A stretch of 64,000 bases of DNA from positions 868,001 through 932,000 of the forward strand of contig NZ_VFOX01000001.1 in NCBI RefSeq assembly GCF_006716345.1, read 5' to 3'. This document shows positions 1 to 16,904 of this stretch, in pieces. This DNA comes from Microbacterium saperdae (GTDB lineage: Bacteria > Actinomycetota > Actinomycetes > Actinomycetales > Microbacteriaceae). Every line of letters begins with the position of its first letter. Position 1 is the stretch's first letter. The notes under the pieces were generated by a model. It was not told the origin of the DNA. It saw nothing but the letters and a program-made list of their open reading frames with translations, and did not search any database. The translations under genes and the position numbers were made by a program.

Positions 1-559
1 CGGGCACGTCGAAGGTCTGCTGCACGTAGGCGGGGATGTCGAAGCGGTCCCACCCCGGCATGATGGGCGGGTTGTACGGCCGCCCGGAGGAGTGCTCCAC
101 CGGTCCCGGCACCCCGATGCCGACGCCGACGATCGGGATCGCCCGCAGCGTCGCATCGTCGAGGAGCGTGCGTCCCTCCGCCACCACGCGGTCGAGCACC
201 GCGACCGGTCCGCTCGCGATATCGAGTGCGTGGGTGATCGAGGCGAGGATGCGGCCCCCGAGGTCGGAGACCGCGACCGTGGCGTGCGAGGCGCCGAGGT
301 CGACCGCGAGCACGAGCCCGGCCCGCGGGTTGAAGGCGACACGCGACGGCGGGCGGCCGCCGGTCGATGCCGCCTCTCCGGCGGGGATCACCAGTCCCGA
401 GGCGAGGAGCGCGTCCACGCGGGATGACACGGTGGATCGCGCCAGCCCCGTGAGATGCACGAGGTCGGCCTTGGTGCGGGCGTGGCCATCGAGAAGGAGC
501 TGGAAGATCTCGCCGGCCCCGGTCGAGGCGCCCCCGAAACTGCGGTCGGCGTCGCTCAT
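1..559 (-). CDS. ROK family transcriptional regulator (3' part beyond window)
   Basis: The N-terminal 186 residues are present and the C-terminus lies off the window edge. Residues about 15-65 form a winged helix-turn-helix (AKADLVHLTGL-like helix followed by ARSTVSSRVDALL), then the wing motif TGGRPPSR, then the start of the ROK sugar-kinase-like fold (VDLGASHATVAVSDL, later GVGIGVPGPV). ROK regulators such as XylR/NagC bind DNA and are released by a sugar or sugar phosphate. It is divergent from the sugar-catabolic operon that starts at 675, so it is the likely regulator of that operon; the ligand cannot be read from the sequence. The ATG at 559 follows a weak TTTACT -10-like box (566-571) at leaderless spacing. 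Confidence 0.85.
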   Translation of the reverse strand, partial: MSDADRSFGGASTGAGEIFQLLLDGHARTKADLVHLTGLARSTVSSRVDALLASGLVIPAGEAASTGGRPPSRVAFNPRAGLVLAVDLGASHATVAVSDLGGRILASITHALDIASGPVAVLDRVVAEGRTLLDDATLRAIPIVGVGIGVPGPVEHSSGRPYNPPIMPGWDRFDIPAYVQQTFDVP

Positions 560-603: not shown

Positions 604-667
604 TTCGTCGATCGAAATAAAACTTCTGACGAAGAGGTAGCAAAAGTGTGCTGACGTGTGTCAGAAT
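604..667 (+). promoter_or_regulatory. Divergent control region with inverted repeats and -10 box
   Basis: This is the region between the ROK regulator and the catabolic operon. TTCGTC (604-609) and GACGAA (628-633) form an inverted repeat with an 18-base spacer. CTGAC-gtgt-GTCAG (651-664) is a perfect 5-bp palindrome. It overlaps a CAGAAT -10-like box (662-667) placed 7 bases before the ATG at 675, as in a leaderless transcript. The palindromes are visible; binding by the ROK protein is an inference. Confidence 0.4.
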
Positions 668-674
668 CATCGAC

Positions 675-1787
675 ATGACAACGGACGTCACTGACACCGG
701 GGTCGGAACGATCCGATCCGGCTTCCTCGGCGGAGGATTCATGGCCCAGGTGCACAGCCGCGCAGCACGCGCGGCGGGTGCCACCACGGCCGTCCTCGCC
801 AGCTCCACTCCTGACCGCGCCGCACAGGCGGCACGGGAACTCGGCATCGATCGCGCAGCGCGCGACATCGACGAGCTCCTGAGCGGCGAGGCCGACATCG
901 TGCACGTCTGCACCCCGAACGCGACGCACACCGCACTCGCCCTGCGCGTGATCGATGCCGGCAAGCACGTGATCTGCGAGAAGCCGCTCGCCACGACCCT
1001 CGCCGAGGCGCGGGAGCTGGCAGCCGCCGCGGCGGAGCGGGGAGTCGTCGCCGCGGTGCCGTTCGTGTACCGCTACCACCCGATGGTGCGCGAGGCGCGG
1101 GCCCGTGTCGCGGCCGGAGAGATCGGTGCGCTGCTCACAGTGGACTGCGGGTACCTGCAGGACTGGATGCTGCTACCGGAAGACGACGACTGGCGCGCGA
1201 CCTCGGCCGAGGGCGGCCCTTCGCGGGCGTTCGCCGACATCGGTTCGCACCTGTGCGATCTGCTCGAGTTCGTCGCAGGAGAGCGCATCGTCCGACTCAC
1301 CGCCCGGACGCGGCGGGTGTACGACGAGCGCGGCGGGCACACCGTCACCAATGAGGATGCGGTGTCGATCCTCGTCGAGATGCAGTCGGGCGCCATCGGC
1401 ACGCTGCTCATCTCGCAGATGGCGGCGGGTCGCAAGAACGCGCTCACCCTCGAGCTGCACGGCGCCCAGTCCAGCATCCGCTTCGACCAGGAGCGGCCGG
1501 AGGAGCTCTGGATCGGCAACCGCGCGGGCAACCTGCAGCTGTTCCGCGACCCGACGTTCGCCCACGAGGGCGTCGCACGCTTCTCCCGCGTTCCTGCCGG
1601 TCACGGGCAGGGCTACCAGGACGCCTTCAACGGCTTCGTCGCCGACGCCTACGCGGCCATCAGCGGCGAGACCCCCGACGGGCTGCCCACTTTCGTCGAC
1701 GGCGTCCGCGCCGCTCAGCTCACCGAGGCCGTGTTGGCCGCGGCGCGCGAAGAGCGTTGGATCGACGTCACCCCTGACCAGGCTTGA
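675..1787 (+). CDS. Gfo/Idh/MocA family NAD(P)-dependent oxidoreductase
   Basis: A 370-residue cytosolic dehydrogenase of the inositol/glucose-fructose oxidoreductase family. It has an N-terminal Rossmann fold with a glycine-rich FLGGGFM loop, the family motif CEKPL that holds the catalytic lysine, and the C-terminal-domain motif DIGSHLCDL (DxGxHxxD) expected near the sugar. Members oxidise or reduce a sugar hydroxyl/keto group with NAD(P), often at C2 or C3. It is first in an operon with a GMC sugar oxidase 16 bases downstream, an importer and three TIM-barrel proteins, so it may reduce or oxidise the keto-sugar intermediate. The ATG at 675 is chosen over a GTG at 648 because a -10 box sits 7 bases upstream of it and no ribosome site supports 648. 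Confidence 0.88.
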   Translation: MTTDVTDTGVGTIRSGFLGGGFMAQVHSRAARAAGATTAVLASSTPDRAAQAARELGIDRAARDIDELLSGEADIVHVCTPNATHTALALRVIDAGKHVICEKPLATTLAEARELAAAAAERGVVAAVPFVYRYHPMVREARARVAAGEIGALLTVDCGYLQDWMLLPEDDDWRATSAEGGPSRAFADIGSHLCDLLEFVAGERIVRLTARTRRVYDERGGHTVTNEDAVSILVEMQSGAIGTLLISQMAAGRKNALTLELHGAQSSIRFDQERPEELWIGNRAGNLQLFRDPTFAHEGVARFSRVPAGHGQGYQDAFNGFVADAYAAISGETPDGLPTFVDGVRAAQLTEAVLAAAREERWIDVTPDQA

Positions 1788-1803
1788 GCGACAAGGAATC
1801 GAC

Positions 1804-3288
1804 ATGACAGACAACTACGACCTCGTCATCGTGGGATCGGGCCCCAACGGAGCCGTGATCGCCGCCCAGGTGCACGCGCAGAGCCCCGAGGCGTCCATCC
1901 TGGTGCTCGAAGCAGGACGCGAGATCACCCAGGTGCCGGGGGAGCACCTCGTCGAAGCGGACGAGAGCGCGCTGAACGCCTCCTACGAAGACCTCATGCG
2001 CCGCGCGCGTCAGATCGAGTACGTCAAGGGCGCCGTCTCGATGAACGAGATCGAAGGGGACGCCTGGCAGGCCGATGTGCCCGGGGTCTTCCCCGCCGCG
2101 TTCTTCGGTCACAACTTCGCCGCCTTCCCCGGGGCCTCCGTGGCCTGGAACATCGGAGGCATGGGCGTGCACTGGACGGCGGCCACGCCGTGGCCGTACG
2201 CGGAGGAGATCCCCGACTTCCTCCCCCGGGAGGAGTGGGACGCCGACCTCGAGACCGCGCGCGGGCTGCTGCGCACCTCGGTCGGTCCGCTCGTCGACAA
2301 CCCGTTCACGGAGCCCATCTTCGCGGCCATCCGCGAGGCCGTCCCCAGCCCCGACCCCGCACGAGAGTTCGGCTACATGCCGATGGCCGGCGTCGCGCAC
2401 GGCGACCGCCCCTTCGCCCGCACCGGTCCCCGCGACATCGCGCCGTTCGTCTTCGACGGCAGCGCGCCGAACGTGACCTTCCGCACCGGCGTCTTCGTGA
2501 CGCGGCTCGAGAACGACGGCACCCGCGTGACCGGACTCGTCACCAAGGACGTCGAGACCGGTGCCGAGACGGTGTACCGCGGCGCGCAGATCCTCGTCGC
2601 CGCCGATGCGCTGCGTACGCCGCAGCTGCTGTGGGCATCCGGCATCCGTCCTGCGGCTCTCGGTGTGCGGCTGAACGAGCACGCCTCGATCGACGGCGAC
2701 GTCGTGATCGACGCCGCCCGTCTCGGGCTCGCTGACGCCCCCGTACCCGTTCCTCCGGCCGGCGAGCCGTTCATCGGCTCCTACTGGAGCCCCTCGATCG
2801 GCGCCGCACGCCCCGCGCACGGACAGCTCATGGAGCGCGAGTTCGACGGCCGGCACGTGCTCGGCGTCGGCTGGTACTGCGCGACCGAGATCCGTCCGGA
2901 GAACCGGATCGAGTTCTCCGATGAGATCACGGACGCGCTGGGCATGCCCCACATGACCGTGCACTTCTCCTACTCGGAGAACGATCTGGCCGAGATCCGC
3001 CGCACCATGGACGTGCAGCGGGCCGCGGCCAACGCGATCGGCACCTTCCAGGACGCCGAGTCCGAGGTGCTCCCCGCCGGGGCGTCGCTGCACTACACCG
3101 GCACCGTCCGGATGGGCCCGATCGACGACGGCACGAGCGTGGTCGACACCGACGGCCGTGTCTGGGGCTTCGACAACCTCTACCTCGCCGGCAACGGCGT
3201 GGTCCCCACCGCGTTGACGTGCAACGCGACACTCACGGGAGCGACCCTCTCCGTGCGTATCGCGCGCGCCGTCAGCGCCGCACTCTGA
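1804..3288 (+). CDS. GMC family FAD-dependent sugar oxidase (pyranose oxidase / C-glycoside 3-oxidase type)
   Basis: A 494-residue GMC oxidoreductase. The N-terminus has the FAD dinucleotide motif VGSGPNG and a matching acidic strand end (LVLEAGR). GGMGVHWTAATP around residues 119-130 is the conserved GMC flavin-binding stretch. The C-terminal catalytic pair is present: H430 in LHYTGT and N474 in TCNATLT, 44 residues apart, which resembles the His/Asn pair of pyranose oxidase. Known relatives oxidise C2 or C3 of free sugars or glycosides; bacterial homologues (CarA type) oxidise C3 of C-glycosides. It lies within a sugar operon beside a Gfo/Idh/MocA enzyme. The start is the ATG at 1804, preceded by AAGGA. 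Substrate and regioselectivity are inferred. Confidence 0.85.
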   Translation: MTDNYDLVIVGSGPNGAVIAAQVHAQSPEASILVLEAGREITQVPGEHLVEADESALNASYEDLMRRARQIEYVKGAVSMNEIEGDAWQADVPGVFPAAFFGHNFAAFPGASVAWNIGGMGVHWTAATPWPYAEEIPDFLPREEWDADLETARGLLRTSVGPLVDNPFTEPIFAAIREAVPSPDPAREFGYMPMAGVAHGDRPFARTGPRDIAPFVFDGSAPNVTFRTGVFVTRLENDGTRVTGLVTKDVETGAETVYRGAQILVAADALRTPQLLWASGIRPAALGVRLNEHASIDGDVVIDAARLGLADAPVPVPPAGEPFIGSYWSPSIGAARPAHGQLMEREFDGRHVLGVGWYCATEIRPENRIEFSDEITDALGMPHMTVHFSYSENDLAEIRRTMDVQRAAANAIGTFQDAESEVLPAGASLHYTGTVRMGPIDDGTSVVDTDGRVWGFDNLYLAGNGVVPTALTCNATLTGATLSVRIARAVSAAL

Positions 3289-3327
3289 CCTGCACTACCC
3301 GATGAACACCACTAGGAGATGATCGCG

Positions 3328-4638
3328 ATGCACACATACCCTTCCTCGCGACGCCGGGCAACGATGCTCGGAATCGCGCTTGTCGCGTCGAGCGCACTGC
3401 TGCTGACCGGCTGCGGACGCGGCGACGACACCCCGGCTGCGGGAGGCGACTCGACCACGGTCGACGACAAGCCCGCCACCGGCACGCTCGAGGTCTGGAC
3501 GCAGGGTGCCGACGGCGCCGAGCTGCCCCAGATGTTCGAGAAGTTCAAGGCCGACAACCCCGACGTCGACATCAACATGACGCAGATCCCCGAGGCCGAG
3601 TTCGCGTCGAAGATGACCGCGGCCATCACGGCGGGCACCGTCCCCGACCTGATCTACTCGTTCACCGAGACGCAGTCCTCGCTGATCGCGACCGGCGGTT
3701 TCGACCCGGTGCCGGACGGACTGGTGAACAAGGATGACTTCTTCGAGGTCATCTGGGACAACTCGGTCTACGACGACGTGGCCTACGGCGTGCCGTGGTA
3801 CGCGTACTCCGACATGGTGATCTACCGCACCGACCTCGCCGAGGCCGCCGGTGCCGAGGCGCCGAAGGACTGGGACGGCCTGCGCACCTTCGGCGAGAAG
3901 CTCAAGGAATCCGGCATCGAGTACCCTCTGGCGCTCTACGCCGCGTACGACTCGTACACCGCGCGCCAGCTGCTGACCTTCGCGGCGCAGAACGGCGGCT
4001 CCTTCATCTCCGACGATCTGTCCGAGTGGACGATCAACTCCCCGGAGAACGTGGAGGCGCTGGAGTACTGGTCCGGGCTCATCAAGGACGGTCTGGCATC
4101 GCCGGACGGACCCGCGTTCCTCGACACGGTCTCGTGGTCGACCACCGGCAAGAACGCCGCGATCATCGACGGCGGCCCCTGGTTCGTCGGCTGGTTCGAC
4201 GACGCCAACGGCGAAGGCTGGGCCGACGAGCACCTGTCGCTGTCGACCATGCCGGTCGGCCCCGACGGCGATGCGGCCACCACGGTCGGCGGCGGCAGCT
4301 GGTTCGTGCCGACCGACTCCGAGAACAAGGACGCCGCGTGGAAGTTCGCGCGCTTCATGTCGGAGCCGGAGAGCCAGGTCGAATGGTTCAAGATCTTCAA
4401 GAACATGCCGGCTGTGAAGTCCGCATGGGAAGACCCGGCCCTGGCCGACGACCGCCTGCTCGCCACGGTCGAGGCCGGTCTCGAGACCGGAATCACGCTG
4501 CCGAAGGTCTCCACCTGGAGCCAGGTCGGCACGGTCATCGGTGAGCAGATGGAGAAGGTCGTCCGCGGCGGACTCTCCGCGCAGGACGCGCTCGACGCGG
4601 CGCAGCAGCAGGCCGAGTCGATCGGGATGGGCAACTGA
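3328..4638 (+). CDS. Sugar ABC transporter substrate-binding lipoprotein (CUT1 type)
   Basis: A 436-residue extracytoplasmic solute-binding protein, family 1. A basic N-terminus, hydrophobic segment and lipobox LLTGC give a lipid-anchored Cys29. The mature part shows the family-1 pattern GTLEVWTQGADG ... FEKFKADNPDVDINMTQIP, and several aromatic residues typical of sugar binding. Two permease genes follow directly (8-base gap), so it delivers the operon's substrate, probably a glycoside or oligosaccharide. AGGAG (3314-3318) gives a good 9-base spacing to the ATG at 3328, whereas it abuts the ATG at 3319, so 3328 is preferred. No ATPase gene is nearby; a shared MsiK/MsmK-type ATPase elsewhere is likely. 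Confidence 0.9.
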   Translation: MHTYPSSRRRATMLGIALVASSALLLTGCGRGDDTPAAGGDSTTVDDKPATGTLEVWTQGADGAELPQMFEKFKADNPDVDINMTQIPEAEFASKMTAAITAGTVPDLIYSFTETQSSLIATGGFDPVPDGLVNKDDFFEVIWDNSVYDDVAYGVPWYAYSDMVIYRTDLAEAAGAEAPKDWDGLRTFGEKLKESGIEYPLALYAAYDSYTARQLLTFAAQNGGSFISDDLSEWTINSPENVEALEYWSGLIKDGLASPDGPAFLDTVSWSTTGKNAAIIDGGPWFVGWFDDANGEGWADEHLSLSTMPVGPDGDAATTVGGGSWFVPTDSENKDAAWKFARFMSEPESQVEWFKIFKNMPAVKSAWEDPALADDRLLATVEAGLETGITLPKVSTWSQVGTVIGEQMEKVVRGGLSAQDALDAAQQQAESIGMGN

Positions 4639-4646
4639 CACCTGCC

Positions 4647-5600
4647 ATGTCCACCACAGCGACTCGCACCATGGTCACCTCCGGGGCGTCTACCCGACGC
4701 CCCGGAGGCACCAGGAAGATGCGCGAGGGAAGCAAGGCGGAGACCACCACGGCGTGGCTCTTCCTCTCGCCGTTCCTCGCCCTCTTCCTGCTCTTCACGG
4801 GCATCCCCGCCATCCTGGCCATCGGAGCCAGCCTGACGGACATGACCGCGCGGGACATCCGTGACCCTCTGGGGGTCAACTTCACCGGCTTCGAAGGCTT
4901 CGCGAAGGTCATCACCAACCCCGGCTTCCAGAGTGCGTTCTTCAACACGATCATGTTCGTGGTGCTGTGCGTGCCGATCAGCATGGCGCTCGGCCTCGCG
5001 CTGGCGCTCATGCTCAACAACGGCATCCGCCGTCTCAAGACGTTCTTCCGTGCGGCGGTCTACGTACCCGTCATCACCAACATCGTGGCGGCGGCGGTCA
5101 TCTGGCAGTACGCCTTCTCGATCACCGGCCCCGTGAACTCGTCACTGGGAGACCTCGGTCTGCCGGAACCGAACTGGCTCGGCGAGCCGGGGTGGGCCAT
5201 CACCACCGTCGTGCTGATGGGCGTCTGGCGCACCACGGGAACCTGCATGATCCTGTTCCTCGCCGGTCTCCAGGCCGTGCCGGAGGAGATCTACGAGGCG
5301 GCAGCGACAGACGGAGCCGGCACCTGGCGCCGCCTCTGGTCGATCACGCTGCCGCTCCTGCGTCCGACGACGCTGCTGATCACCGTCCTGATGACGGTGT
5401 CGTTCCTGAACATCTTCGAGGAGCCGTACCTGCTGACCAAGGGCGGGCCGCTCGGCTCCACCAAATCGATCGCGGTCTGGGTCTACGAACAGTTCGGATT
5501 CGGGAACGTGTCGGCCTCGATGGCCGGATCCGTCCTGCTCCTCCTGCTCGTCGGGATCGTCGCGATCGTCCAGTTCCGAATGCTGAGGCCGAAACATTGA
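4647..5600 (+). CDS. Sugar ABC transporter permease (MalF/UgpA type)
   Basis: A 317-residue inner-membrane permease with about six membrane segments. The first is AWLFLSPFLALFLLFTGIPA near residues 36-56. The cytoplasmic EAA loop reads EAAATDGAGTWRRLW, where the ATPase docks. It follows the binding-protein gene by 8 bases and overlaps the next permease by four bases (TTGA), so the two permeases are translationally coupled and form the heterodimeric channel. A hydrophilic N-terminal tail of about 30 residues precedes the first helix; a later ATG at 4671 would shorten it. Confidence 0.9.
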   Translation: MSTTATRTMVTSGASTRRPGGTRKMREGSKAETTTAWLFLSPFLALFLLFTGIPAILAIGASLTDMTARDIRDPLGVNFTGFEGFAKVITNPGFQSAFFNTIMFVVLCVPISMALGLALALMLNNGIRRLKTFFRAAVYVPVITNIVAAAVIWQYAFSITGPVNSSLGDLGLPEPNWLGEPGWAITTVVLMGVWRTTGTCMILFLAGLQAVPEEIYEAAATDGAGTWRRLWSITLPLLRPTTLLITVLMTVSFLNIFEEPYLLTKGGPLGSTKSIAVWVYEQFGFGNVSASMAGSVLLLLLVGIVAIVQFRMLRPKH

Positions 5601-6424
5601 AGACTCTGTCTCCGACGCGTCAGGCGCTGAACTACACAGCCCTCATCGTCGTCACCGTGTTCATGCTCCTTCCCTTCGTCTGGGTGTTCTTCGGATCGTT
5701 CAAGACGCAGTCCGAGTTCCTGGGCAACCCGGGGGCCTGGTTCCCCGAGTCCTTCCAGATCGACAACTACATCCAGCTGTTCGCCGACCGTGAGTTCGGC
5801 ACGTACATGATGAACAGCTTCGTCGTCTCCGGCGTCGCGATCGTGGGCAACGTGCTGTTCAGCGCGATGGCCGGCTACGCCCTGGCGAAGCTGCGCTTCC
5901 GGGGGAAGAACTTCGTCTTCCCGCTCGTGATCATCTCGATGATCGTGCCGTACGTGGCGCTGTTCGTGCCGCAGTTCGTCGTGGTCGTGCAGATGGGACT
6001 GGTGAACTCGCTCGTCGCGATCATCCTCCCGGTCCTGATCCTGCCGCTGTGTGTGTTCATCATGCGTCAGTTCGCGCACGGGGTGCCCTTCGAACTCATG
6101 GAGGCTGCTCGTCTCGACGGCGCGGGGGAGGGACGACTGTTCTTCCGGATCTTCCTCCCGCTCACCGGGCCGGGGCTGGCGACGGTGGCGATCCTGTCGT
6201 TCCTCACCTCCTGGAACAACTTCCTCTGGCCGCTCGTCGTCGCCCAGTCGCAGGACACCTACACGGCTCCGGTCGGACTGTCCGTGGCTTCCCAGGCATC
6301 CAACACGATCTCCTTCGGACTGCTGCTCGCCGGCGCCGTCGTCGTGCTGCTGCCGATCCTCATCCTCTTCCTCTTCCTCCAGAAGTACTTCATCCAGGGT
6401 GTCGCCACCGCGGGGCTGAAGTAG
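5597..6424 (+). CDS. Sugar ABC transporter permease (MalG/UgpE type)
   Basis: A 275-residue partner permease with six predicted membrane spans and the EAA motif EAARLDGAGEGRLFF. The start is an unusual TTG at 5597 that overlaps the stop of the upstream permease; the protein then reads KTLSPTRQALNY before the first helix (LIVVTVFMLLPFVWVFFGSF). It completes the CUT1-type importer with the 3328 and 4647 genes. The frame is open far upstream, but that extension lies over the first permease and is not protein-like. Confidence 0.9.
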   Translation: MKTLSPTRQALNYTALIVVTVFMLLPFVWVFFGSFKTQSEFLGNPGAWFPESFQIDNYIQLFADREFGTYMMNSFVVSGVAIVGNVLFSAMAGYALAKLRFRGKNFVFPLVIISMIVPYVALFVPQFVVVVQMGLVNSLVAIILPVLILPLCVFIMRQFAHGVPFELMEAARLDGAGEGRLFFRIFLPLTGPGLATVAILSFLTSWNNFLWPLVVAQSQDTYTAPVGLSVASQASNTISFGLLLAGAVVVLLPILILFLFLQKYFIQGVATAGLK

Positions 6425-6441
6425 AACCGAACGGAACCGCC

Positions 6442-7389
6442 ATGCAGATGAAAGACCTGAAGTTCGCGCTCAACGCGATCCAGTGGATCAACGTCAAGGA
6501 GAACCCGGACGATCTCGACAGCGCGAGCCTGTGGCGCTTCGCGGATCCCTCGTTCGTCGCCGAGTACCCGCAGGTGCTGGCGGAGATCAGGAACGCGGGG
6601 TTCTCGGCCACGATGCTGGAGGTGCTCGACACCCAGACTCTGCAGAACTACGCCGCGATGGTCGAGGTGTCCGGTCTGGAGCTGGCTCCCGGCTACGTGC
6701 AGGTGCCGCTCGCGAGCGATCACGGCGGACGTCTGGAGCGCGGCTCGTTCGAGCGCATCCACTGGTTCGACGCGGTGCGCCGCAAGGCGGAGGAGTCCAA
6801 CTACTTCGGACTCGACACGATCTTCCTCGCCGCCGAGGTGGACCAGACCGCCATCCGCTGGGAGAAGCCGGCGATCGGCGTCGACTTCTCGCAGGATCGA
6901 CTCGACGAGCTCACCGACCTGATCGACGAGGCCGTCGACGTGCTCAACGCCGAGGGCGTGCGCCCCGGCCTGCACAACCACGTGGGCACGTGGATCGAGA
7001 CCGAGCACGAGTACGAGCACGTGCTGAACAGCATCGATGCCTCGCGCCTGGGCGCTTCCTTCGACATCGGTCACCTGGAATGGGCGGGCATCGACGCGAA
7101 GCAGGCCATCGCGAAGTGGGCGGATCGCGTGCAGGACCTGCACGTGAAGGACCTGAACCTGGAACTGGCCCGCCGCAGCCGTGAAGAGGGGGTCAGCTAC
7201 GAGCGCGCGACCGACCTGGGGCTGTACCTCGAACCGGGACTCGGCCAGATCGACATCGTCGACACGCTCTCCGTGCTCCCCGACGGCTTCGGCGGGTGGA
7301 TCATCATCGAGGTGGACAGGGCCAGCATGGATCCGGTGGCCAGCGCGCGCCACACGGCAGCCTGGGTCGCCGACGTCACCGGTTCCTGA
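6442..7389 (+). CDS. Sugar phosphate isomerase/epimerase-like TIM-barrel protein (copy 1)
   Basis: A 315-residue protein of the xylose-isomerase-like TIM barrel (AP endonuclease 2) superfamily. Candidate metal and catalytic residues lie in [29 protein letters not shown] and IIIEVD, the usual strand ends. Relatives include sugar epimerases and isomerases, inosose dehydratases, and lyases acting on 3-keto glycosides. It is strongly similar to the next gene, so the pair looks like a tandem duplication. It sits 17 bases after the importer permease. Function beyond metal-dependent keto-sugar chemistry is not assigned. Confidence 0.82.
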   Translation: MQMKDLKFALNAIQWINVKENPDDLDSASLWRFADPSFVAEYPQVLAEIRNAGFSATMLEVLDTQTLQNYAAMVEVSGLELAPGYVQVPLASDHGGRLERGSFERIHWFDAVRRKAEESNYFGLDTIFLAAEVDQTAIRWEKPAIGVDFSQDRLDELTDLIDEAVDVLNAEGVRPGLHNHVGTWIETEHEYEHVLNSIDASRLGASFDIGHLEWAGIDAKQAIAKWADRVQDLHVKDLNLELARRSREEGVSYERATDLGLYLEPGLGQIDIVDTLSVLPDGFGGWIIIEVDRASMDPVASARHTAAWVADVTGS

Positions 7390-7420
7390 CGGACCGGGCC
7401 CTGAAGAACGGAGAACAGCG

Positions 7421-8383
7421 ATGGCGCTGACACAGCATCACTTCTCACTCAACACGCTGCAGTGGATCACGGTCTCGCTCGGCGAGTCCACCGGTGAGCC
7501 GGGAAGCGTGGGATGGGAGTTCGACCTGTCGACCTTCCTGCCCAAGCAGCCCGTCATCCTCGGGCAGGTGGCCGAGGCGGGGTACTCCTCGGTCATGCTC
7601 GAGGTGCTGCCGACCCAGACGCTGCAGAGCTACGCTCGCGTGGTCGCGGACTCGGGCCTGCGGCTGTCGCCCGGCTACGTGCACATCGGGCTTCCCGAGG
7701 AGTTCGACCGTGACCACTCCGGGGACCCGGAGGCGCACTTCCGCTGGTTCGACGCGATCCGGCGCCGGGCCGAGGAGACGACCTACATGGGTCTCGACCG
7801 CGTCTTCCTGGCGGCCGACATGGCGCCGGGGCGTCCGCGGATCGACGACGCGGCGGCGATCGGGCACGCCTTCGACCGTGCGCGGCTGGATCGCGTGGCG
7901 AACGTGATCGGCGAGGCCGCCGAGGTGCTCAGGGCCGAGGGCGTGACGGCCGCGCTGCACAACCACGTCGGCACCTGGGTGGAGACCGAGGAGGAGTACG
8001 AGTACGTGCTCGACGCCATCTCGCCGAGCCTGCTCGCGGCCGGGCCCGACATCGGGCACCTGGCCTGGACCGGCGCGGATGTCGTGGAGTGGGTCGCCGC
8101 GCACGCCGACCGCATCTCCGACCTGCATGTGAAGGACATGGACCTGTCGATCGCCGCCGAGGCGCGGGCGACGCACACGCCGTACTTCGATGTGATGAGC
8201 CGCCGCTTCTTCCTCGAGCCCGGTCGCGGGGACGTGCCGATCGTCGACGCGCTCGCCGGGCTGCCGGAGGACTTCGACGGTTCTGTGATCATCGAAGTGG
8301 ACAAGCCCAGCATGGAGCCGTTCGCGAGCGCGAAGGCGAGCTGGGCGTGGATCGCCGAGAACTATCCGGAGGCCGCACGATGA
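7421..8383 (+). CDS. Sugar phosphate isomerase/epimerase-like TIM-barrel protein (copy 2)
   Basis: A 320-residue paralogue of the preceding gene. It shares the start [11 protein letters not shown] (copy 1: FALNAIQWI), [20 protein letters not shown] (copy 1: MLEVLDTQTLQNYA), the [12 protein letters not shown] block, [16 protein letters not shown] and [16 protein letters not shown]. The putative metal ligands are kept in both copies, so neither looks inactive. Divergence is concentrated around residues 120-160 and 240-265. It overlaps the next gene by ATGA. The two copies may form a heteromer or act on different keto sugars; this is an inference. Confidence 0.82.
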
Positions 8384-9390
8384 CCAGCACGCATCCCGTC
8401 ACGCTGTTCACGGGGCAATGGGCCGACCTGCCCTTCGAGGAGGTGGCCCGGCTCGCGAGCGAGTGGGGGTACGACGGACTCGAGGTCGCCGCGTCCGGCG
8501 ACCACCTCGATCTGCAGCGCGCCGACGAGGATGAGGCCTATCTGGCCTCGCGCAGGGAGATCCTGGACCGCCATGGGCTGAAGATCTTCGCGATCTCGAA
8601 CCATCTCGCCGGCCAGGCCGTGTGCGATGCGCCGATCGACTTCCGCCACCAGGCGATCCTGCGCGACTACGTGTGGGGGGACGGCGACGCCGAGGGCGTG
8701 CGCCAGCGCGCCGCGGAAGACATGAAGCGCGCGGCCCGCGTGGCGCGCAAGCTCGACATCGACACGGTCGTCGGCTTCACGGGGTCGTCGATCTGGCCCT
8801 ACGTGGCGATGTTCCCGCCGGTGCCCGCATCGGTCATCGAAGGCGGTTTCGAGGACTTCGCCGCCCGCTGGAACCCGATCCTCGACGTGTTCGACGGCGA
8901 GGGTGTGCGCTTCGCGCACGAGGTGCATCCGGGCGAGATCGCGTACGACTACTGGTCGTCCGTGCGGGCGCTGGAGGCGATCGACCACCGCGAGGCCTTC
9001 GGGTTCAACTGGGACCCCTCGCACATGATGTGGCAGAACATCGACCCCGTCGGCTTCATCGTCGACTTCGCCGACCGGATCTACCACGTGGACTGCAAGG
9101 ACACCCGGATGCGACCGCAGAACGGCCGCGCCGGCGTGCTCGGCTCGCACCTGCCCTGGGGCGACCCGCGGCGCGGCTGGGACTTCGTCTCGACCGGGCA
9201 CGGAGACGTGCCGTGGGAGGACTCGTTCCGCGCACTCGACGCGATCGGCTACACCGGCCCCATCTCGATCGAGTGGGAGGACGCCGGCATGGACCGGTTG
9301 CACGGCGCCGCCGAGGCCGTCGGATTCGTGCGGTCGCTGCTGTGGCCGAAGCCCACCGCCTCCTTCGACGCCGCCTTCAGCAACCAGTAG
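8380..9390 (+). CDS. Sugar phosphate isomerase/epimerase family protein, CGD alpha-like
   Basis: A 336-residue TIM-barrel protein, more distant from the two upstream paralogues. Candidate metal ligands are E in [15 protein letters not shown] in [12 protein letters not shown] in IYHVDCKD and E in [11 protein letters not shown]. This set and the length resemble the sugar-isomerase-like catalytic (alpha) subunit of C-glycoside deglycosidases and related 3-keto-glycoside enzymes. The small DUF6379-type beta subunit that accompanies known C-glycoside deglycosidases is not encoded in this window. It overlaps the previous gene by four bases (ATGA). Family assignment is good; the specific reaction is inferred. 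Confidence 0.8.
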
Positions 9391-9396
9391 GCCCGG

Positions 9397-10641
9397 GTGT
9401 TCTGGGAGCCCTTGCGGGCTCGATTCACCCGGGAAGCGCTGACCCGCTCCTTCGTCGCGCTGCGCATCCGCGACTACCGCCGATGGAGCATCGCGCAGCT
9501 GCTCTCCGGGGCGGGCGCCGCGGCCTCGCAGATCGCGATCGCCTGGCTCGTGATCGAGCTCGGCGGCGACGGCATCGCCCTCGGCGCGGTCACGGCCTGC
9601 ATGATGCTCCCCACGCTCCTGCTCGGTCCGTTCATCGGGATCCTGGTCGACCGCCACACGCGGCGCGCGGTGCTCCTCGTGACGGCGGTGGCGCAGATGC
9701 TCATCGCCGGCGTGCTCGCGGCCCTCACGTTCGGCGGGGCGTTGGAGCTGTGGATGCTGATGGCGCTCTCGCTCGCGCACGGTGTGGCCTTCGCGGCCGA
9801 CAACCCCGCCCGTCAGCTGCTGGTGATGGACATCGTCGGTCGCGAGCGGATGACGAGCGCCGTGAGCATGAACGAGGTGATCATCAACGGCGCCAGGGTC
9901 ATCGGACCCGCGATCGCCGGGGTGCTGCTCGTCGTCTCGGACGCGGGCTGGTGCTTCGTCGTGAACGTGCTGATGTTCGTGCCGTCGATCTTCGTGCTGC
10001 TGTCGCTGCGTCCGGTCGCCCCTGCCGGCCGTACGGAGCCGGCGGATTCGACCGCTGCCGCCGCGCGCCCGATCGGCGCCTGGCGATTCGCGATGCACAC
10101 ACCCGCCATCCGTGCGACGCTGCTCCTCGCCGTCTGTGCCTCCGCGTGCTACAACATCGCCGTCGTGGTGCCGCTCATCGTCGCCGATGTCTTCCATGCC
10201 GACGGCGGAACCTATGGTGCGCTCGCGGTGGCCTTCGGACTGGGCGCGCTGCCCGGTGCGTTCTTCTCCGCGACCGGTCCGACGATGCCCCGCAGCGCGG
10301 AGGTGCGGGCGATGGCCGTGGCGATGGCGGCGGCCGTGCTGCTCTCGGCCGGCGCGCCGACGCTGCCGCTGCTGTTCGTCGGCCTCGCGGCGGTGGGCAT
10401 GGTCGTGATGTGGTTCATCGCCAGGGCGAACGCCTTCGTGATGCTCTCGACGCCCACCGCGATCCGCGGACGTGTCATGGGCATCTGGGCGATGGCGTTG
10501 CCGGGATCGACCGTGGTGACAGGCCTGCTGATCGGCGGGCTCGCCGACCTCACGGACCCGCGTATCGCCTACGGCGCCGTCGGACTCGTCACCGCCCTGG
10601 TCGTCACGCTGTCGTGGCGGGGGCTGCGCTCAGCGCGTTGA
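9397..10641 (+). CDS. MFS transporter (EntS/MFS_3-like)
   Basis: A 414-residue major facilitator protein with about 12 hydrophobic segments. The loop GILVDRHTRRAVLL between helices 2 and 3 matches the MFS signature region, and a second half begins near residue 225 after a polar linker (APAGRTEPADST). It starts with GTG at 9397, six bases after the TIM-barrel gene, and ends the operon. Members of this branch are usually exporters of siderophores or small molecules. Here it may remove an aglycone or toxic product released from an imported glycoside, an inference from position only. Confidence 0.82.
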   Translation: MFWEPLRARFTREALTRSFVALRIRDYRRWSIAQLLSGAGAAASQIAIAWLVIELGGDGIALGAVTACMMLPTLLLGPFIGILVDRHTRRAVLLVTAVAQMLIAGVLAALTFGGALELWMLMALSLAHGVAFAADNPARQLLVMDIVGRERMTSAVSMNEVIINGARVIGPAIAGVLLVVSDAGWCFVVNVLMFVPSIFVLLSLRPVAPAGRTEPADSTAAAARPIGAWRFAMHTPAIRATLLLAVCASACYNIAVVVPLIVADVFHADGGTYGALAVAFGLGALPGAFFSATGPTMPRSAEVRAMAVAMAAAVLLSAGAPTLPLLFVGLAAVGMVVMWFIARANAFVMLSTPTAIRGRVMGIWAMALPGSTVVTGLLIGGLADLTDPRIAYGAVGLVTALVVTLSWRGLRSAR

Positions 10642-10660: not shown

Positions 10661-11632
10661 TCAGTGGTCGCGCAGGCGCACCAGGCGCTCGTGCCCGGTC
10701 TCCTCGAGCTCGGCCATGTCGTCGCGGGACTTCAGGAAGTCCGAGAACGAACGGTAGCCGAGCGCCTTCTCGCTGAACGACGGGTCCATGCGACGCATGT
10801 GCGTCTTCACGGCCGAGCTGTGCAGCCATTCGTCGGCATCGCCCTTGTCGTGCCCCAGCCGCAGGGCGCGTTCCAGCAGCTGTGTGGCCTCGCCCTGCTC
10901 ATCGAGCTTCGGCGGAGCGGCCTCCGCCGGCGCGGACTTCGCCTTGACGCGCGAGCGGCTCTTCGCCTTCGGGGCGTCCGCGGTCGTCTCCGCCGGTGCG
11001 GCCGTGGTCTCGACGGGCACCTCGGCGGCCGGGGGCGTGGCGGCCGGGGCGGGTGCCTTGACCGGCCGCACGACGCCGGACAGGGAGTCGTAGGCCTCGA
11101 ACTCGTCGCATGCGGCGGCGAGGGACTTGGCGGTGGAACCCGCGACGCCCACGCCGATCACATAGCGGCCGAGGCGCTTGCAGCGCTGCGCGAGCGGCAC
11201 GTAGTCGCTGTCGCCGGCGACGATCACCACGTGGGTGAGGTCGGGGAGGCGGAACATGTCTTCCACGGCATCCACGGCGAGGCGGATGTCGGCGCCGTTC
11301 TTGGCATAGGCCGCTGCGGGGAACAGCTGCACCAGGTCGACGGCGCGGGCCACCAGCTGGGAGCGGTAGACCGCGTTCACCGGCGATGACCAGTCCGCAT
11401 AGGCGCGGGTGAGCACCAGCGTGCCGAAGGAGGCGGCGTAGTCGATGATCGCGCCGACCTCGATCATCGCCTGGCTCAGGCGCTCGGCGACCTCGGGATC
11501 GTTGGGCTGCTCGGAGATGCGCTGACGGTCCTTGGCGTAGGCGTTGCGCCCGTGCACCCGGTCGTACCAGGAGATGACGATGTTGTCGAAGTCCAGATAG
11601 ACCGCGACGCGGGAGTCCGTGGGCTCAGCCAT
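10661..11632 (-). CDS. NYN domain protein with C-terminal LOTUS/OST-HTH-like domain
   Basis: A 323-residue protein. Residues 1-150 form an NYN (PIN-like, LabA/DUF88) domain with the acidic residues expected of a metal-dependent ribonuclease: VYLDFDNI, DIRLAVDAVEDMF and VAGDSDYVPLA. A low-complexity Ala/Pro/Glu/Lys linker runs from about 190 to 235. The last 80 residues (LLERALRLGHDKGDADEWLHSS ... YRSFSDFLK) resemble an OST-HTH/LOTUS RNA-binding domain. The likely role is RNA cleavage or RNA surveillance in the cytosol; the target is unknown. Its start overlaps the 3' end of the upstream Gfo/Idh/MocA gene by 8 bases, so the two are probably co-transcribed although functionally unrelated. Confidence 0.85.
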   Translation of the reverse strand: MAEPTDSRVAVYLDFDNIVISWYDRVHGRNAYAKDRQRISEQPNDPEVAERLSQAMIEVGAIIDYAASFGTLVLTRAYADWSSPVNAVYRSQLVARAVDLVQLFPAAAYAKNGADIRLAVDAVEDMFRLPDLTHVVIVAGDSDYVPLAQRCKRLGRYVIGVGVAGSTAKSLAAACDEFEAYDSLSGVVRPVKAPAPAATPPAAEVPVETTAAPAETTADAPKAKSRSRVKAKSAPAEAAPPKLDEQGEATQLLERALRLGHDKGDADEWLHSSAVKTHMRRMDPSFSEKALGYRSFSDFLKSRDDMAELEETGHERLVRLRDH

Positions 11633-12632
11633 TGTCGGCGTCCTCTCCGGGGTAGCGCACGCCGATCTGGCGGCGGATCTCGTCGAGGGTGCCCATGATC
11701 GCGACGCTCTCGGCGATCGGGAGGATGTCGCCCTCGAGAAGGCCCTCGCGCACGAGACGTTCCGCGGCGAGCGCCTCGTACTGCATGCCGCGTCCGTCCG
11801 CGTCGGAGGCAGGGCGACCGTCGAACTCCTCGATCACCTCGCCCTGTGGATCGATCACCCGCACGACGGAGGGGGACCACCAGTACCGCTCGATCTCGAT
11901 GCGCGCCTCGGTGCCGAGGATGACGGCGGTGTTCGGCCCTGCTGCGCGCGAGGACGACAGGCTCGTGGAGACCGCGCCGCCCTCGTGGGTCATGACGGTG
12001 GCGACCTCGGCGTCCGCGCCCGTCTCGATCAGGCGGGCGACGCTGTGCACGGAGGTGGGCGCTCCGAGGATGTCCCAGATGAACGAGAGCGGGTAGATCG
12101 CCAGGTCGAGCAGTGCGCCGCCGCCGAGCTCGAGCGCGTTCAGCCGGTGCGTGGGATCGGAGGGGAGCAGCTGCGTGTGGTCGGCGCTGACCGCGCGGAT
12201 CTCGCCGAGCGTGCCGGCGGCGATGATCTCGCGGACGCGGACCATGTGCGGCAGGTAGCGGGTCCACATCGCCTCGGTGACCAGCAGGCCGCGCTCGGCG
12301 GCGAGACGCTGCAGGTCCTCCGCCTCGGCGTGGTTGAGCGTGAAGGCCTTCTCGACCAGCACGTGCTTGCCGTGTTCGAGCGCGAGGCGCGCGTTCCGGT
12401 GGTGCATCGGATGCGGCGTGGAGACGTAGATGATGTCGACGTCGGGATCGGCCACGAGCGCCTCATAGGACGCATGCGCGTGCGGGATGTCGAAACGGTC
12501 GGCGAAGGCGTCGGCCGACTCCTGAGATCGGGAACCGACCGCCACCAGATCGATTCCTGCGGTGCGCAGATCGGATGCGAAGGCGCCGGCGATGCCGCCG
12601 GTCGCGAGGATGCCCCAACGAAGACCAGTCAT
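11625..12632 (-). CDS. Gfo/Idh/MocA family oxidoreductase
   Basis: A 335-residue NAD(P)-dependent dehydrogenase. The N-terminus WGILATGGIAGAFASDL carries the Rossmann glycine loop, followed by VEKAFTLN (equivalent of the EKP lysine motif) and a C-terminal GGGALLDLAIYPLSF block typical of the trans-dihydrodiol / glucose-fructose oxidoreductase-like subgroup. The substrate is unknown. The ATG at 12632 is chosen because a TACGCT -10 box lies 6 bases upstream and the longer open frame to 12845 has no protein-like features. It is divergent from the flavin monooxygenase at 12739. Confidence 0.87.
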   Translation of the reverse strand: MTGLRWGILATGGIAGAFASDLRTAGIDLVAVGSRSQESADAFADRFDIPHAHASYEALVADPDVDIIYVSTPHPMHHRNARLALEHGKHVLVEKAFTLNHAEAEDLQRLAAERGLLVTEAMWTRYLPHMVRVREIIAAGTLGEIRAVSADHTQLLPSDPTHRLNALELGGGALLDLAIYPLSFIWDILGAPTSVHSVARLIETGADAEVATVMTHEGGAVSTSLSSSRAAGPNTAVILGTEARIEIERYWWSPSVVRVIDPQGEVIEEFDGRPASDADGRGMQYEALAAERLVREGLLEGDILPIAESVAIMGTLDEIRRQIGVRYPGEDADNG

Positions 12633-12638
12633 CCTCTC

Positions 12639-12644
12639 AGCGTA
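12639..12644 (-). promoter_or_regulatory. -10 box, leaderless promoter
   Basis: On the minus strand TACGCT lies exactly 6 bases before the ATG at 12632, so transcription would start at the start codon. No clear -35 box is seen. Confidence 0.45.
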
Positions 12645-12725
12645 GAGGGTGCGCCCTGTGTGTCGGACTGTTGCGCTCTGTGACCTGCGACTTCGGCCCT
12701 CCTCGCCCCGGCCTCGGCGTGCTCC

Positions 12726-12731
12726 TACCGT
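12726..12731 (+). promoter_or_regulatory. -10 box, leaderless promoter
   Basis: TACCGT lies 7 bases before the ATG at 12739. There is no ribosome-binding site between them, consistent with a leaderless mRNA for the flavin monooxygenase. Confidence 0.45.
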
Positions 12732-12738
12732 GTCGGGC

Positions 12739-14124
12739 ATGACCGAACCCCTCATCGTCGGCGCCATGGTGCGCACTCTCGGCGCATACCCCTCCGGCTG
12801 GCGGCAGGACGGGGCGCACCGCGATCCCGCCGGTGACGCCGACATCCTGCGTCGGGTCGCACAGGCGGGAGAGGAAGCGGGGCTGGACTACCTCTTCTTC
12901 GGCGACTGGCTCGCGACCGGACCCGATCTCGAGTTCCGCGACCCCTATCTGCTCGCGCGCATCGACCCGGTGAGTGCGGTGCTGTTCCTCGCCGGCGTCA
13001 CCTCGCGCATCGGACTCATCGCGACGGTCAACACCACCTATGCCGACCCCTATACGACGGCGCGCTCGCTGGCGTCCCTCGACGTGCTCACGCGCGGACG
13101 CGCGGGGGTGAACCTGGTCACCGGCGCCGAGCCGCGGGCTGCGGGCAACCATGGCCGCGACGCGCACGCGGACAACGAGAACCGCTACGACCGGGCGGAG
13201 GAGTTCGTGACGGCACTCCGCCGGCTCTGGGATTCGTGGAGCGAGGATGCCTGGATCGCGGATGCCGCGCGCGGCGTGCTGATCGATCCGGACGGGCTGC
13301 GCCCCGCAGCCCTCCAGGGCGCGCACCTGGGCGTCAGCGGTCCGCTCAACGTCGCGCGGCCGCCGCAGGGGCAGATCCCGATCGTGCATGCCGGCACCTC
13401 TCCGCGTTCGCGGGCACTGGCGGCGACCGAGGCGGATCTCGCCCTGATCGCGGCGCCGACGCTGGCAGACGCGATCGAGGTGCGCAGGGTCCTGCGGGCG
13501 ATCGCCGCGGATGCCGGTCGCGACCCCGAATCGCTGAAGGTCATCGCACCCGTGCTGCCCGTGGTCGCCGACACCGACGCCGACGCGCATCGCATCGTGG
13601 AGCGCCTGCTCGCCCTCGTGCCGCTCGCCGAAGGTCATCAGCGCGATCGCACCGCGTTCCCCGCGAATCGCACGGTCGCGGCTCTCGCGGATGCGCTCTC
13701 GGTCGCGCCGGATGATCCGCTGCGCACCGCCGCGTTCGACGATGAGGTGACGGCGGACCAGGCATCTCGGCTGGGTGCGATCGGAGCCCAACTGATCGAG
13801 CGGCTGGCGCGCATCGCCGGGCTCGGCGTGGCGACGCGGCATCCGCTCACCTGGCGCCACCTGGTCGCGGCGCACGCGGTGCCGGCCGCATTCGTGGTGG
13901 GCGGCGCGGCGACCATCGCCGACCACTTCGAGACGTGGCGCGACGGGGGAGCCGCCGACGGCTTCAACGTGCTGTCGGCGTTCCAGCCGGCCCAGTTCGA
14001 GGCCTTCACCCGTCTCGCCGCCCCGGAACTGCGGCGCCGCGGACTGCTCGGACGCGAGGGCGAGACCCTGCGCGAACGTCTCGGCGTGACCGCGCAGTCG
14101 GCGCTCCAGACCGTGCGCGCGTGA
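12739..14124 (+). CDS. LLM class flavin-dependent monooxygenase (NtaA/SnaA/DszA type)
   Basis: A 461-residue luciferase-like monooxygenase of the large-subunit group that contains nitrilotriacetate, pristinamycin, dibenzothiophene sulfone and dimethyl sulfide monooxygenases. Hallmarks are GEEAGLDYLFFGDW, TTYADPYTTARSLASLDVLTRGRAGVNLVTG near residues 95-125, NENRYDRAEEFV, and QIPIVHAGTSPRSRALAA. Such enzymes use FMNH2 made by a separate reductase and O2. Just downstream is an importer operon that ends in another luciferase-like enzyme, suggesting both act on an imported S- or N-containing compound. An FMN reductase lies at 28828 but is not linked to this operon. The substrate is unknown. Confidence 0.85.
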   Translation: MTEPLIVGAMVRTLGAYPSGWRQDGAHRDPAGDADILRRVAQAGEEAGLDYLFFGDWLATGPDLEFRDPYLLARIDPVSAVLFLAGVTSRIGLIATVNTTYADPYTTARSLASLDVLTRGRAGVNLVTGAEPRAAGNHGRDAHADNENRYDRAEEFVTALRRLWDSWSEDAWIADAARGVLIDPDGLRPAALQGAHLGVSGPLNVARPPQGQIPIVHAGTSPRSRALAATEADLALIAAPTLADAIEVRRVLRAIAADAGRDPESLKVIAPVLPVVADTDADAHRIVERLLALVPLAEGHQRDRTAFPANRTVAALADALSVAPDDPLRTAAFDDEVTADQASRLGAIGAQLIERLARIAGLGVATRHPLTWRHLVAAHAVPAAFVVGGAATIADHFETWRDGGAADGFNVLSAFQPAQFEAFTRLAAPELRRRGLLGREGETLRERLGVTAQSALQTVRA

Positions 14125-14153
14125 CGCCGCATGACGTCAGGAGTCGTCCGGTG

Positions 14154-14172
14154 ACGGGCGGCGTCTGCCCGT
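14154..14172. terminator. Small hairpin between monooxygenase and importer operon
   Basis: ACGGGC (14154-14159) and GCCCGT (14167-14172) pair with a 7-base loop. No T-run follows on the plus strand. It could attenuate or end transcription from 12739; the evidence is weak. Confidence 0.25.
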
Positions 14173-14206
14173 GACGGCCCAGTCGCCGTGCTCTCCCCGC
14201 AATCCC

Positions 14207-14212
14207 TAGCGT
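14207..14212 (+). promoter_or_regulatory. -10 box upstream of importer operon
   Basis: TAGCGT is followed by a leader of about 48 bases that contains a strong ribosome site (CCAGGAGG, ending about 7 bases before the ATG at 14267). It is therefore a normal leadered promoter, unlike many others in this window. Confidence 0.35.
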
Positions 14213-14266
14213 GATCCACACCTCGCACTTCCATCCCTGCATCCCATCCCTCCAGGAGGCCCCCGC

Positions 14267-15901: not shown

Positions 15902-15917
15902 TGCACACGGATCACTG

Positions 15918-16904
15918 ATGAGTTTCGTCCTCCGACGAGCCGGGCAGGCCGCGATCGTACTGATCGCGGCCTTCACCGCCACGTTCTTCCTGCTCCAGCT
16001 GCTGCCGGGCGATGCGATCCTGATCAAGTTCTCGGATCCGAGCCTCGGCCTGTCGCCCGAGCAGCTCGACAGCATCCGCGCCACCTACGGCGCCGATCTT
16101 CCCTGGTGGGAGCAGTACGTGCACGCCGGGCTCGGCTTCCTGGCCGGCGACTTCGGGTACTCGACGCAGTTCGGCACGCCCGTGCGGACGATGCTCGCGG
16201 AGGCGCTGCCCGCCACGCTCCTGCTGGCCTCGCTCGGGCTGATCGTCGCCTTGCTGATCGCGATCCTCATCGCCGGGCTGTCCTCGCTCGCCCCGTTCGC
16301 CTGGCTGCGCGACGGACTGCGCCAGGTGCCGGGACTCTTCGTCGCCGTTCCCGTCTTCTGGCTCGGCATCCTGCTGATCCAGGTGTTCTCGTTCGGACTC
16401 GGCTGGGTGCCGATCGTCGGTGCCGATCCGGTGAGCGGCCTGATCCTGCCGGTGCTGACGCTCGCGGTGCCGATCTCCGCGCCGCTCGCCCAGGTGCTGG
16501 TGCGCGCGATCGACCAGGTGCAGGCGCAGCCGTTCATCACGGTCGTCCGCGCGAAGGGCGCGCCTCCGCTCTGGGTGCTCACGCGGTCGGTCGCCCGCAA
16601 CGCGACCCTGCCCACGCTGACGATCGCGGGTGTGCTGTTCGGCGAGCTCGTCGGCGGAGCGGTCGTGACCGAGACCGTGTTCGGGCGTACCGGCATCGGG
16701 CGCCTCACCGAGCAGGCCGTGTCGAACCAGGACATCCCGGTGCTGCAGGGCGTGGTCCTGCTCTCTGCGCTCGGGTTCGTGCTGATCAGCTTCGCGGTGG
16801 ACCTCGTCACACCGCTCATCGATCCGCGGCAGCGCCGTGTCGCACGCGTTTCCGCCCCGACCGCTCCCGCGAAGACGACGACCCTCCAGGAGGTGTCGGC
16901 ATGA
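15918..16904 (+). CDS. ABC transporter permease (DppB/NikB type)
   Basis: A 328-residue membrane permease with the family start FVLRRAGQAAIVLIAAFTATFFLLQLLPGD-like pattern, and the EAA-type cytoplasmic loop ITVVRAKGAPPLWVLTRSVARN. About six membrane spans are predicted. It follows the binding protein by 16 bases and overlaps the next permease by ATGA, so translation is coupled. It forms the channel together with the 16901 product. Confidence 0.9.
   Translation: MSFVLRRAGQAAIVLIAAFTATFFLLQLLPGDAILIKFSDPSLGLSPEQLDSIRATYGADLPWWEQYVHAGLGFLAGDFGYSTQFGTPVRTMLAEALPATLLLASLGLIVALLIAILIAGLSSLAPFAWLRDGLRQVPGLFVAVPVFWLGILLIQVFSFGLGWVPIVGADPVSGLILPVLTLAVPISAPLAQVLVRAIDQVQAQPFITVVRAKGAPPLWVLTRSVARNATLPTLTIAGVLFGELVGGAVVTETVFGRTGIGRLTEQAVSNQDIPVLQGVVLLSALGFVLISFAVDLVTPLIDPRQRRVARVSAPTAPAKTTTLQEVSA

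Follow-up and report, generated by a model that had tools for sequence, protein, structure and literature searches.

The study of non-hydrolytic glycoside cleavage is still young, and to our knowledge the pathways described so far start either with dehydrogenases or with CarA-type oxidases tied to C-glycosides. Here, we describe a nine-gene, plus-strand operon (positions 675-10641) in a 64,000-nucleotide stretch of Microbacterium saperdae, hereafter the window (C1:868001-932000 of a 4.3-Mb genome in two contigs), and we consider it reasonably likely that this operon directs the non-hydrolytic, oxidase-first degradation of an imported glucoside by a GMC flavin oxidase, the triose-phosphate isomerase (TIM) barrels TIM1/TIM2 and TIM3, and a Gfo/Idh oxidoreductase (Gfo). 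The substrate is probably an O-glucoside; a plant-type compound is plausible and a C-glycoside unlikely. A preliminary description of the stretch had proposed a 3-keto route for C- or O-glycosides. Its oxidative 3-keto-type core, made of a pyranose-oxidase homologue, Gfo/Idh and metal-dependent TIM barrels, is supported; its C-glycoside half is not: the genome has no match to CGDB, the small subunit that marks the known C-glycoside deglycosidases, the oxidase is not placed on the CarA/PsG3Ox side of its tree, and O-glycosides fit better.

A nine-gene operon conserved with its oxidase

All nine genes are present as first described, and the Pfam assignment agrees for each of them:

675..1787, plus strand: Gfo/Idh/MocA oxidoreductase, predicted 3-keto-glucose reductase (Pfam GFO_IDH_MocA, 93 bits)
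1804..3288, plus strand: GMC flavin oxidase in pyranose/C-glycoside-oxidase sequence space, predicted glycoside 3-oxidase (PDB matches, motifs, tree)
3319..4638, plus strand: sugar-binding protein of an ATP-binding cassette (ABC) importer, solute-binding type (SBP_bac_1, 125.6 bits)
4647..5600, plus strand: ABC permease 1 (BPD_transp_1, 71.3 bits)
5597..6424, plus strand: ABC permease 2, TTG start (BPD_transp_1, 71.4 bits)
6442..7389, plus strand: TIM1, IolE-like TIM barrel, predicted 3-keto-glycoside beta-eliminase (AP_endonuc_2)
7421..8383, plus strand: TIM2, TIM1 paralogue sharing its site pattern, predicted to be a second eliminase (AP_endonuc_2; 46% to TIM1)
8380..9390, plus strand: TIM3, predicted 2-hydroxy-3-keto-glucal hydratase (AP_endonuc_2; 2zds 520 bits, AtHYD 135 bits)
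9397..10641, plus strand: exporter-type transporter of the major facilitator superfamily (MFS) (MFS_3, 137.6 bits)

A gene for the ATPase of the ABC importer is not among the operon genes. A Pfam scan of ten proteins (the nine operon products and the in-window part of a divergent ROK regulator) returned no glycoside-hydrolase family, in agreement with the earlier remark that no classical glycoside hydrolase is present.

Gene order is kept in 20 other full loci of the window oxidase lineage and is therefore not a product of chance. We counted by eye the gene tables of the 21 lineage operons that are not cut short (the window, 14 named and 6 unnamed loci; L005, a 4.4-kb contig, was left out): ABC and TIM3 genes are present in all 21, TIM1 in 20, MFS in 13 and TIM2 in 12. 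The operon without TIM1, L013, has only a TIM2-type gene, and two TIM-like fragments lie between its TIM3 and MFS genes (L013:13011-14440). The MFS gene accompanies TIM2, being present in 12 of 12 operons with TIM2 and in 1 of 9 without it. Broken frames occur in L019 and L148; in the former several genes are split by frameshifts, probably through assembly errors.

The oxidase belongs with pyranose and C-glycoside oxidases

By sequence, the GMC protein is a homologue of pyranose and C-glycoside oxidases, with a lineage of its own that adjoins the Streptomyces canus type. Its best PDB matches are 8qve (279 bits), the C-glycoside oxidase MtCarA (7dve, 234 bits; the deposited molecule name reads 6'''-hydroxyparomomycin C oxidase) and PsG3Ox (7qf8, 213 bits), whereas choline oxidases reach at most 43 bits in the same search. 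Among NCBIfam models, pyranose oxidase (TIGR02462) scores 143.9 bits against 74 for choline dehydrogenase and 22.1 for cholesterol oxidase, all below cut-off (544.9 for TIGR02462), and Pfam recognizes GMC_oxred_C (68.9 bits) and GMC_oxred_N (34.8 bits). On these scores we reject the reading as a choline or cholesterol oxidase; a grouping with such enzymes, which the preliminary description had named as telling against its own proposal, is not what the scores show.

The pyranose-oxidase His/Asn pair noticed earlier is indeed there, as His430 and Asn474 aligned with PsG3Ox. Residues 121-125 read GVHWT, and GVHW (121-124) is reported as the flavinylation motif of clade III, ScPOx-type pyranose oxidases (Kostelac et al., PMC10807413). 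The clade III substrate loop R(P/T)(F/Y)VDEDG(E/R) was not found in the window protein, which has MEREFDGR followed by a gap, and the short loop recurs in all nine of the lineage members aligned.

In a 113-row oxidase tree, the window protein falls in a starred 16-row lineage nested in a larger starred group of 55 rows that also takes in other Microbacteriaceae, Streptomyces canus and Amycolatopsis; MtCarA and PsG3Ox fall on the opposite side. The long stem of the window lineage (1.11) makes its exact joining point less sure, and its place relative to clade II, which is reported to include MPOx (PMC11673046), is not fixed by the tree, since none of the rows was recognized as bearing GAWH, the motif of clade II. 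The oxidase trees contain pyranose-oxidase-type rows only and so give no further test against choline and cholesterol oxidases. A genome search (E <= 0.001) finds the window copy to be the sole gene of this type in its genome. Across a genus sample of 247 genomes, 81 have an oxidase match at E <= 1e-40, and 14, own genome included, carry the window lineage at an identity of at least 76% (the G492 copy is split in two); of the 15 named contigs whose oxidase is at least 76% identical, 14 are from Microbacterium and one is from an unclassified member of the Microbacteriaceae.

TIM1 and TIM2 as candidate lyases

The three TIM barrels counted earlier are all present, with the correction that TIM1 and TIM2 are 46% identical paralogues and that TIM2 is absent from 9 of the 21 lineage operons. 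The TIM1 site (H178, H180, D208, H234, E290) is invariant in 43 sequences, the TIM2 site reads H180, H182, D210, H236 and E292, and both metal-ligand patterns are intact. This HxH/D/H/E pattern is the one reported for the O-glycoside eliminase AtOGE, whose site consists of a metal His, a catalytic His two residues on, Asp, His and Glu; the same report gives Glu at the first position of the AtOGE-type HxH in CGEs (PMC10628242). AtOGE is absent by name among the sequence and fold matches listed, which excludes nothing. IolE also has HxH. The modelled TIM1 has the IolE fold, and IolE is the closest relative of TIM1 and TIM2 by sequence among the matches listed. The cut-off of the IolE model TIGR04379 (290 bits) is nonetheless missed by TIM1 (105.5), TIM2 (81.6) and TIM3 (35.3), and a genome search returned neither an IolE nor an IolD above cut-off (best IolD score 226.5 bits against 715). 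The barrels are thus IolE-like but far below the IolE cut-off, and the second outcome named as telling against the proposal, clustering with inosose dehydratases of an inositol pathway, did not occur.

A recent duplication as the origin of TIM2 is not supported: TIM2 groups, weakly (86/78), with an Amycolatopsis protein and away from TIM1. An obligate TIM1-TIM2 heteromer is unlikely given the lineage operons that lack TIM2.

Which candidate lyase accompanies which oxidase

In 118 loci we scored the genes lying up to 8 kb from the oxidase, after removing nine same-contig duplicates (L121, L138-L140, L142-L146) judged by place or identical oxidase, among other signs; L105-L119, with short flanks, and L085-L104 are not in this count. 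Genes further off are uncounted, such as the hydratase-type and Gfo genes of L166. The neighbours are TIM1/2-type in 41 loci, a Streptomyces-type TIM barrel (TIMst) in 26, CarB/CGDB in 8 and none of these in 43, and TIM1/2 and CarB/CGDB occur together in no locus (0/118). An oxidase tree of 119 rows leaves out L019, L135 and L148, with best oxidase matches of at most 380 residues; in it, all 39 TIM1/2-linked rows, window included, belong to one 72-row clade (Shimodaira-Hasegawa-like approximate likelihood ratio test, SH-aLRT, 99 as printed once the tree had been rerooted on MtCarA). The rest of this clade consists of 26 rows linked to TIMst and 7 without a label, and none of its rows is linked to CarB/CGDB. 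Mapped on this tree, the TIM1/2 label changes 5 times against a shuffled mean of 33.0, with 0 of 500 shuffles as low, a contrast inflated by close relatives. The related oxidases of L022-L044, L046 and L048 (Streptomyces, Nonomuraea) stand beside another IolE-like TIM barrel, and the S. canus copy of it has HxE, not HxH (by eye).

PF19906, the small CGDB subunit, has no match in the genome of M. saperdae, so that no C-glycoside deglycosidase was found there; the same probe is positive in 11 genomes of a family sample of 150. Ten of the 11 CGDB genomes have an oxidase match within 20 kb of CGDB that is 35-39% identical to the window's, and the eleventh, G028, yields no oxidase at the cut-off. 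None of the genomes whose sole oxidase match is at least 41% identical (G000, G033, G063, G090, G108, G116, G140) is among the CGDB-positive ones; in G045 a 41% oxidase and CGDB lie on different contigs. CGDB is also absent from G132 (35% oxidase) and G148 (32%).

These counts bear directly on C-glycoside degradation, in which the oxidase would feed a C-C-cleaving deglycosidase as in CarA/CarBC, with TIM1 and TIM2 as a heteromeric replacement for CarB and CarC, both of which are reported to be required for C-C cleavage (PMC8563793). The adjacency of the two paralogues invites such a comparison, the window oxidase occupies the same sequence space, and a Microbacterium enzyme, MPOx, is reported to oxidize aspalathin and phlorizin (PMC11673046). 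We nevertheless regard this explanation as unlikely: the genome has no match to the CGDB subunit, TIM1/2 and CarB/CGDB never occur together in the scored loci, the absence of TIM2 from 9 of the 21 lineage operons argues against an obligate pair, and TIM1 and TIM2 have HxH where Glu is reported for CGEs.

TIM3 and Gfo/Idh as predicted hydratase and reductase

TIM3 resembles the 2-hydroxy-3-keto-glucal hydratase AtHYD, from which we predict a hydratase role. It matches SCO6571 (2zds) at 520 bits and AtHYD (8ro4) at 134.6 bits (E 3.6e-38, residues 19-324), and its E181, H183, D212 and E298 align with AtHYD. The HVKD of AtHYD is DCKD in TIM3, with Asp (D238) at one AtHYD His position and H236 two residues before it; the metal ligands of AtHYD are themselves assumed from AtOGE, and its function comes from evidence described as preliminary (PMC10628242) and from its PDB name. 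SCO6571, deposited as a putative DNA-binding protein, is a close TIM3 relative and AtHYD-like, and is probably misnamed.

Gfo has levoglucosan dehydrogenase (NF052479) as its best NCBIfam model, at 184.1 bits against a cut-off of 650, and the IolG model matches at 114 bits, also below cut-off. Gfo genes adjoin hydratase-type genes in both TIM1/2 and CarB/CGDB loci: the hydratase type is found in 23 of 41 and 5 of 8 of these loci, respectively, and the corresponding counts for Gfo are 25 of 41 and 4 of 8. Such company is expected if both lyases yield the same glucal, and we infer that hydratase and reductase are shared while the lyase is swapped. The 18 of 41 TIM1/2 loci without a hydratase match within 8 kb weigh against this. 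The route's enzymes also meet in more distant loci: Amycolatopsis nivea (L018) has a divergent ROK gene followed in order by Gfo (48%), a hydratase-like TIM barrel (26% to TIM3; best PDB matches 2zds at 44 bits and AtHYD at 28 bits), GMC (45%) and a TIM2-like gene (49%), while no transporter of the types seen in the window was matched next to them, and L154 and L162 bring together GMC, ABC, TIM1-type, Gfo and hydratase-like genes.

The levoglucosan dehydrogenase match raises the question of whether Gfo/Idh performs the 3-oxidation itself, with GMC serving at a different step or on a different substrate, such as the released sugar or the aglycone. The M. saperdae genome lends this some colour about 360 kb away on C1, where one cluster (L001:13851-18361) combines a TIM3 paralogue (84%), Gfo (43%), a TIM1-like gene (33% identical to TIM2) and, by eye, a ROK kinase-like gene, a second TIM1-like and Gfo pair (L001:4986-6919) lies next to a dipeptide-type ABC transporter (by eye), and no GMC match occurs in the 19.9-kb stretch. 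In 16 of the 41 TIM1/2 loci, however, the oxidase still stands with a TIM1/2-type gene although no Gfo match lies within 8 kb, so the oxidase, not Gfo, is the constant partner, and we think a dehydrogenase-first route rather improbable. Least probable of all is a cyclitol route, in which GMC would oxidize inositol or an inositol glycoside, TIM1/TIM2 would be inosose dehydratases and Gfo/Idh an inositol dehydrogenase: the IolE likeness and the IolG match speak for it, but the IolE, IolG and IolD cut-offs are all missed, the hydratase-like TIM3 would have no evident part in an inositol route, and the oxidase family acts on glycosides and pyranoses.

Proposed pathway

What the analysis shows directly are the genes, their active-site residues, the oxidase lineage and the conservation of both linkage and repeat; the steps are predictions drawn from these. 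Returning to the oxidase-first degradation of an O-glucoside, we envisage the following:

(i) The ABC importer would take up the glycoside.

(ii) GMC would oxidize the glucosyl C3 with O2 to give the 3-keto-glycoside and H2O2. With O2 driving this step, the pathway would become irreversible and would pay for it in NAD(P)H and H2O2.

(iii) In TIM1, joined by TIM2 where present, H180 would take the C2 proton and a metal bound by H178, D208, H234 and E290 would polarize the ketone; beta-elimination would then expel the aglycone and leave 2-hydroxy-3-keto-glucal.

(iv) TIM3 would hydrate this glucal to 3-keto-glucose, which Gfo/Idh could reduce with NAD(P)H to glucose.

(v) The MFS protein may carry a product out of the cell, its cargo perhaps being the aglycone.

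(vi) A ROK repressor would control the operon by acting on a conserved inverted repeat upstream of it.

At family level, we see about an even chance that pyranose oxidases serve at least three exchangeable oxidize-then-cleave modules with a common hydratase and reductase and a swapped lyase (CarB/CGDB, the Streptomyces TIM barrel, or the IolE-derived HxH proteins TIM1/TIM2), and that TIM1/TIM2 are undescribed, independently recruited 3-keto-glycoside beta-eliminases paired with an O2-dependent oxidase. If the pathway is right, an O-glycoside branch is likewise driven by this oxidase family, by way of a lyase that seems to have been recruited from the inosose-dehydratase fold. The operon would then provide a candidate family of lyases free of CGDB and an oxidase lineage whose substrate loop is reduced, and would assign functions to proteins at present called inosose dehydratase, sugar phosphate isomerase or, for SCO6571, putative DNA-binding protein.

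Regulation and neighbouring genes

Three features precede the operon:

2..559, minus strand: divergent ROK-family regulator, N-terminal part (Pfam ROK), leaving the window at its left edge
622..647: operator-like inverted repeat ACTTCTG-N12-CAAAAGT between ROK and Gfo
662..667, plus strand: CAGAAT, candidate -10 box (by eye), 7 nt before the ATG

The in-window ROK part scores 25.5 bits against a Pfam cut-off of 22.9 and has a helix-turn-helix-like segment (by eye). A divergent ROK gene lies beside the operon in lineage loci (for example, 73-80% in L019, L021 and L138-L142), and also in L120 (55%) and A. nivea L018 (42%). The repeat looks like the operator of the operon and may be bound by ROK: all 16 of the lineage intergenic regions that we examined, the window's among them, contain it with half-sites 12 nt apart and no more than two mismatches to ACTTTTG/CAAAAGT, and the one-mismatch pattern has 1 site in the window against 0 in 100 shuffles. 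At two mismatches it was not found in L018, L025, L122, L128 or L001. A regulon beyond the operon was rejected, as the one-mismatch pattern has a single further site elsewhere in the genome and a reversed control pattern also gives one. CAGAAT is kept in 13 of the 16 intergenic regions, and its position just upstream of the ATG suggests a leaderless transcript. A strict sigma-70 promoter scan gave no site, no RNA element appeared at Rfam thresholds, a tRNA scan detected none, and the sole terminator-like site, inside the MFS gene, is below the shuffle mean.

Downstream of the operon, a second Gfo/Idh gene lies at 11628-12845 (minus strand), and weak opposite-strand Gfo matches recur at this side of many lineage loci. 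Positions 12727-20435 hold a peptide-type ABC transporter (SBP_bac_5, permease, ATPases) between two luciferase-like monooxygenase genes.

Comparison with known systems

A literature search of open-licence papers (titles and abstract starts) did not name the operon among the matches listed. Among the nearest described systems are CarA/CarBC of Microbacterium sp. 5-2b and the cluster of PsG3Ox, which is reported to adjoin CarB/CarC homologues (PMC10646112). Like the window, both place a pyranose-oxidase-type flavin oxidase beside TIM barrels, and the related clusters L132 and L163-L166 likewise hold Gfo and TIM3-type genes; unlike them, the window has no CarB/CGDB-type lyase, its genome has no CGDB match, and its oxidase sits across the tree with a short substrate loop.

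The four-step route of oxidation, elimination, hydration and reduction is reported as shown for levoglucosan in Bacillus smithii (PMC7676230) and as proposed for Agrobacterium tumefaciens (PMC10628242). The AtOGE/AtHYD operon of A. tumefaciens shares with the window this sequence of steps, the likeness of TIM3 to AtHYD and the HxH/D/H/E pattern of TIM1/TIM2; its first step, in contrast, is assigned to a dehydrogenase, GlycDH, reported to be about 20% identical to CarA-type oxidases, and the nearest relatives of TIM1 among the matches listed are IolE, with AtOGE absent by name from the sequence matches. The B. smithii lgdA-B1-B2-C genes follow the same logic and likewise encode Gfo-type enzymes and a pair of TIM-type (sugar phosphate isomerase) proteins, but as reported they start with an NAD-dependent dehydrogenase on an anhydrosugar, whereas the window has a flavin oxidase.

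The ScPOx-type clade III loci of Streptomyces neighbour the window oxidase as a group and share the GVHW motif and adjacent ABC genes; they differ in having TIMst as TIM partner and a carboxylesterase-like gene between ABC and oxidase, seen in two Streptomyces loci (L025, L044; product by eye). The inosose dehydratase IolE shares the metal-ligand motifs of TIM1/TIM2 and the fold of TIM1, whereas both proteins score below its curated cut-off in a genome with no IolE or IolD above cut-off. The general logic of the pathway is ordinary; what sets the window operon apart is an oxidase without CGDB, with IolE-like proteins in the place of the lyase.

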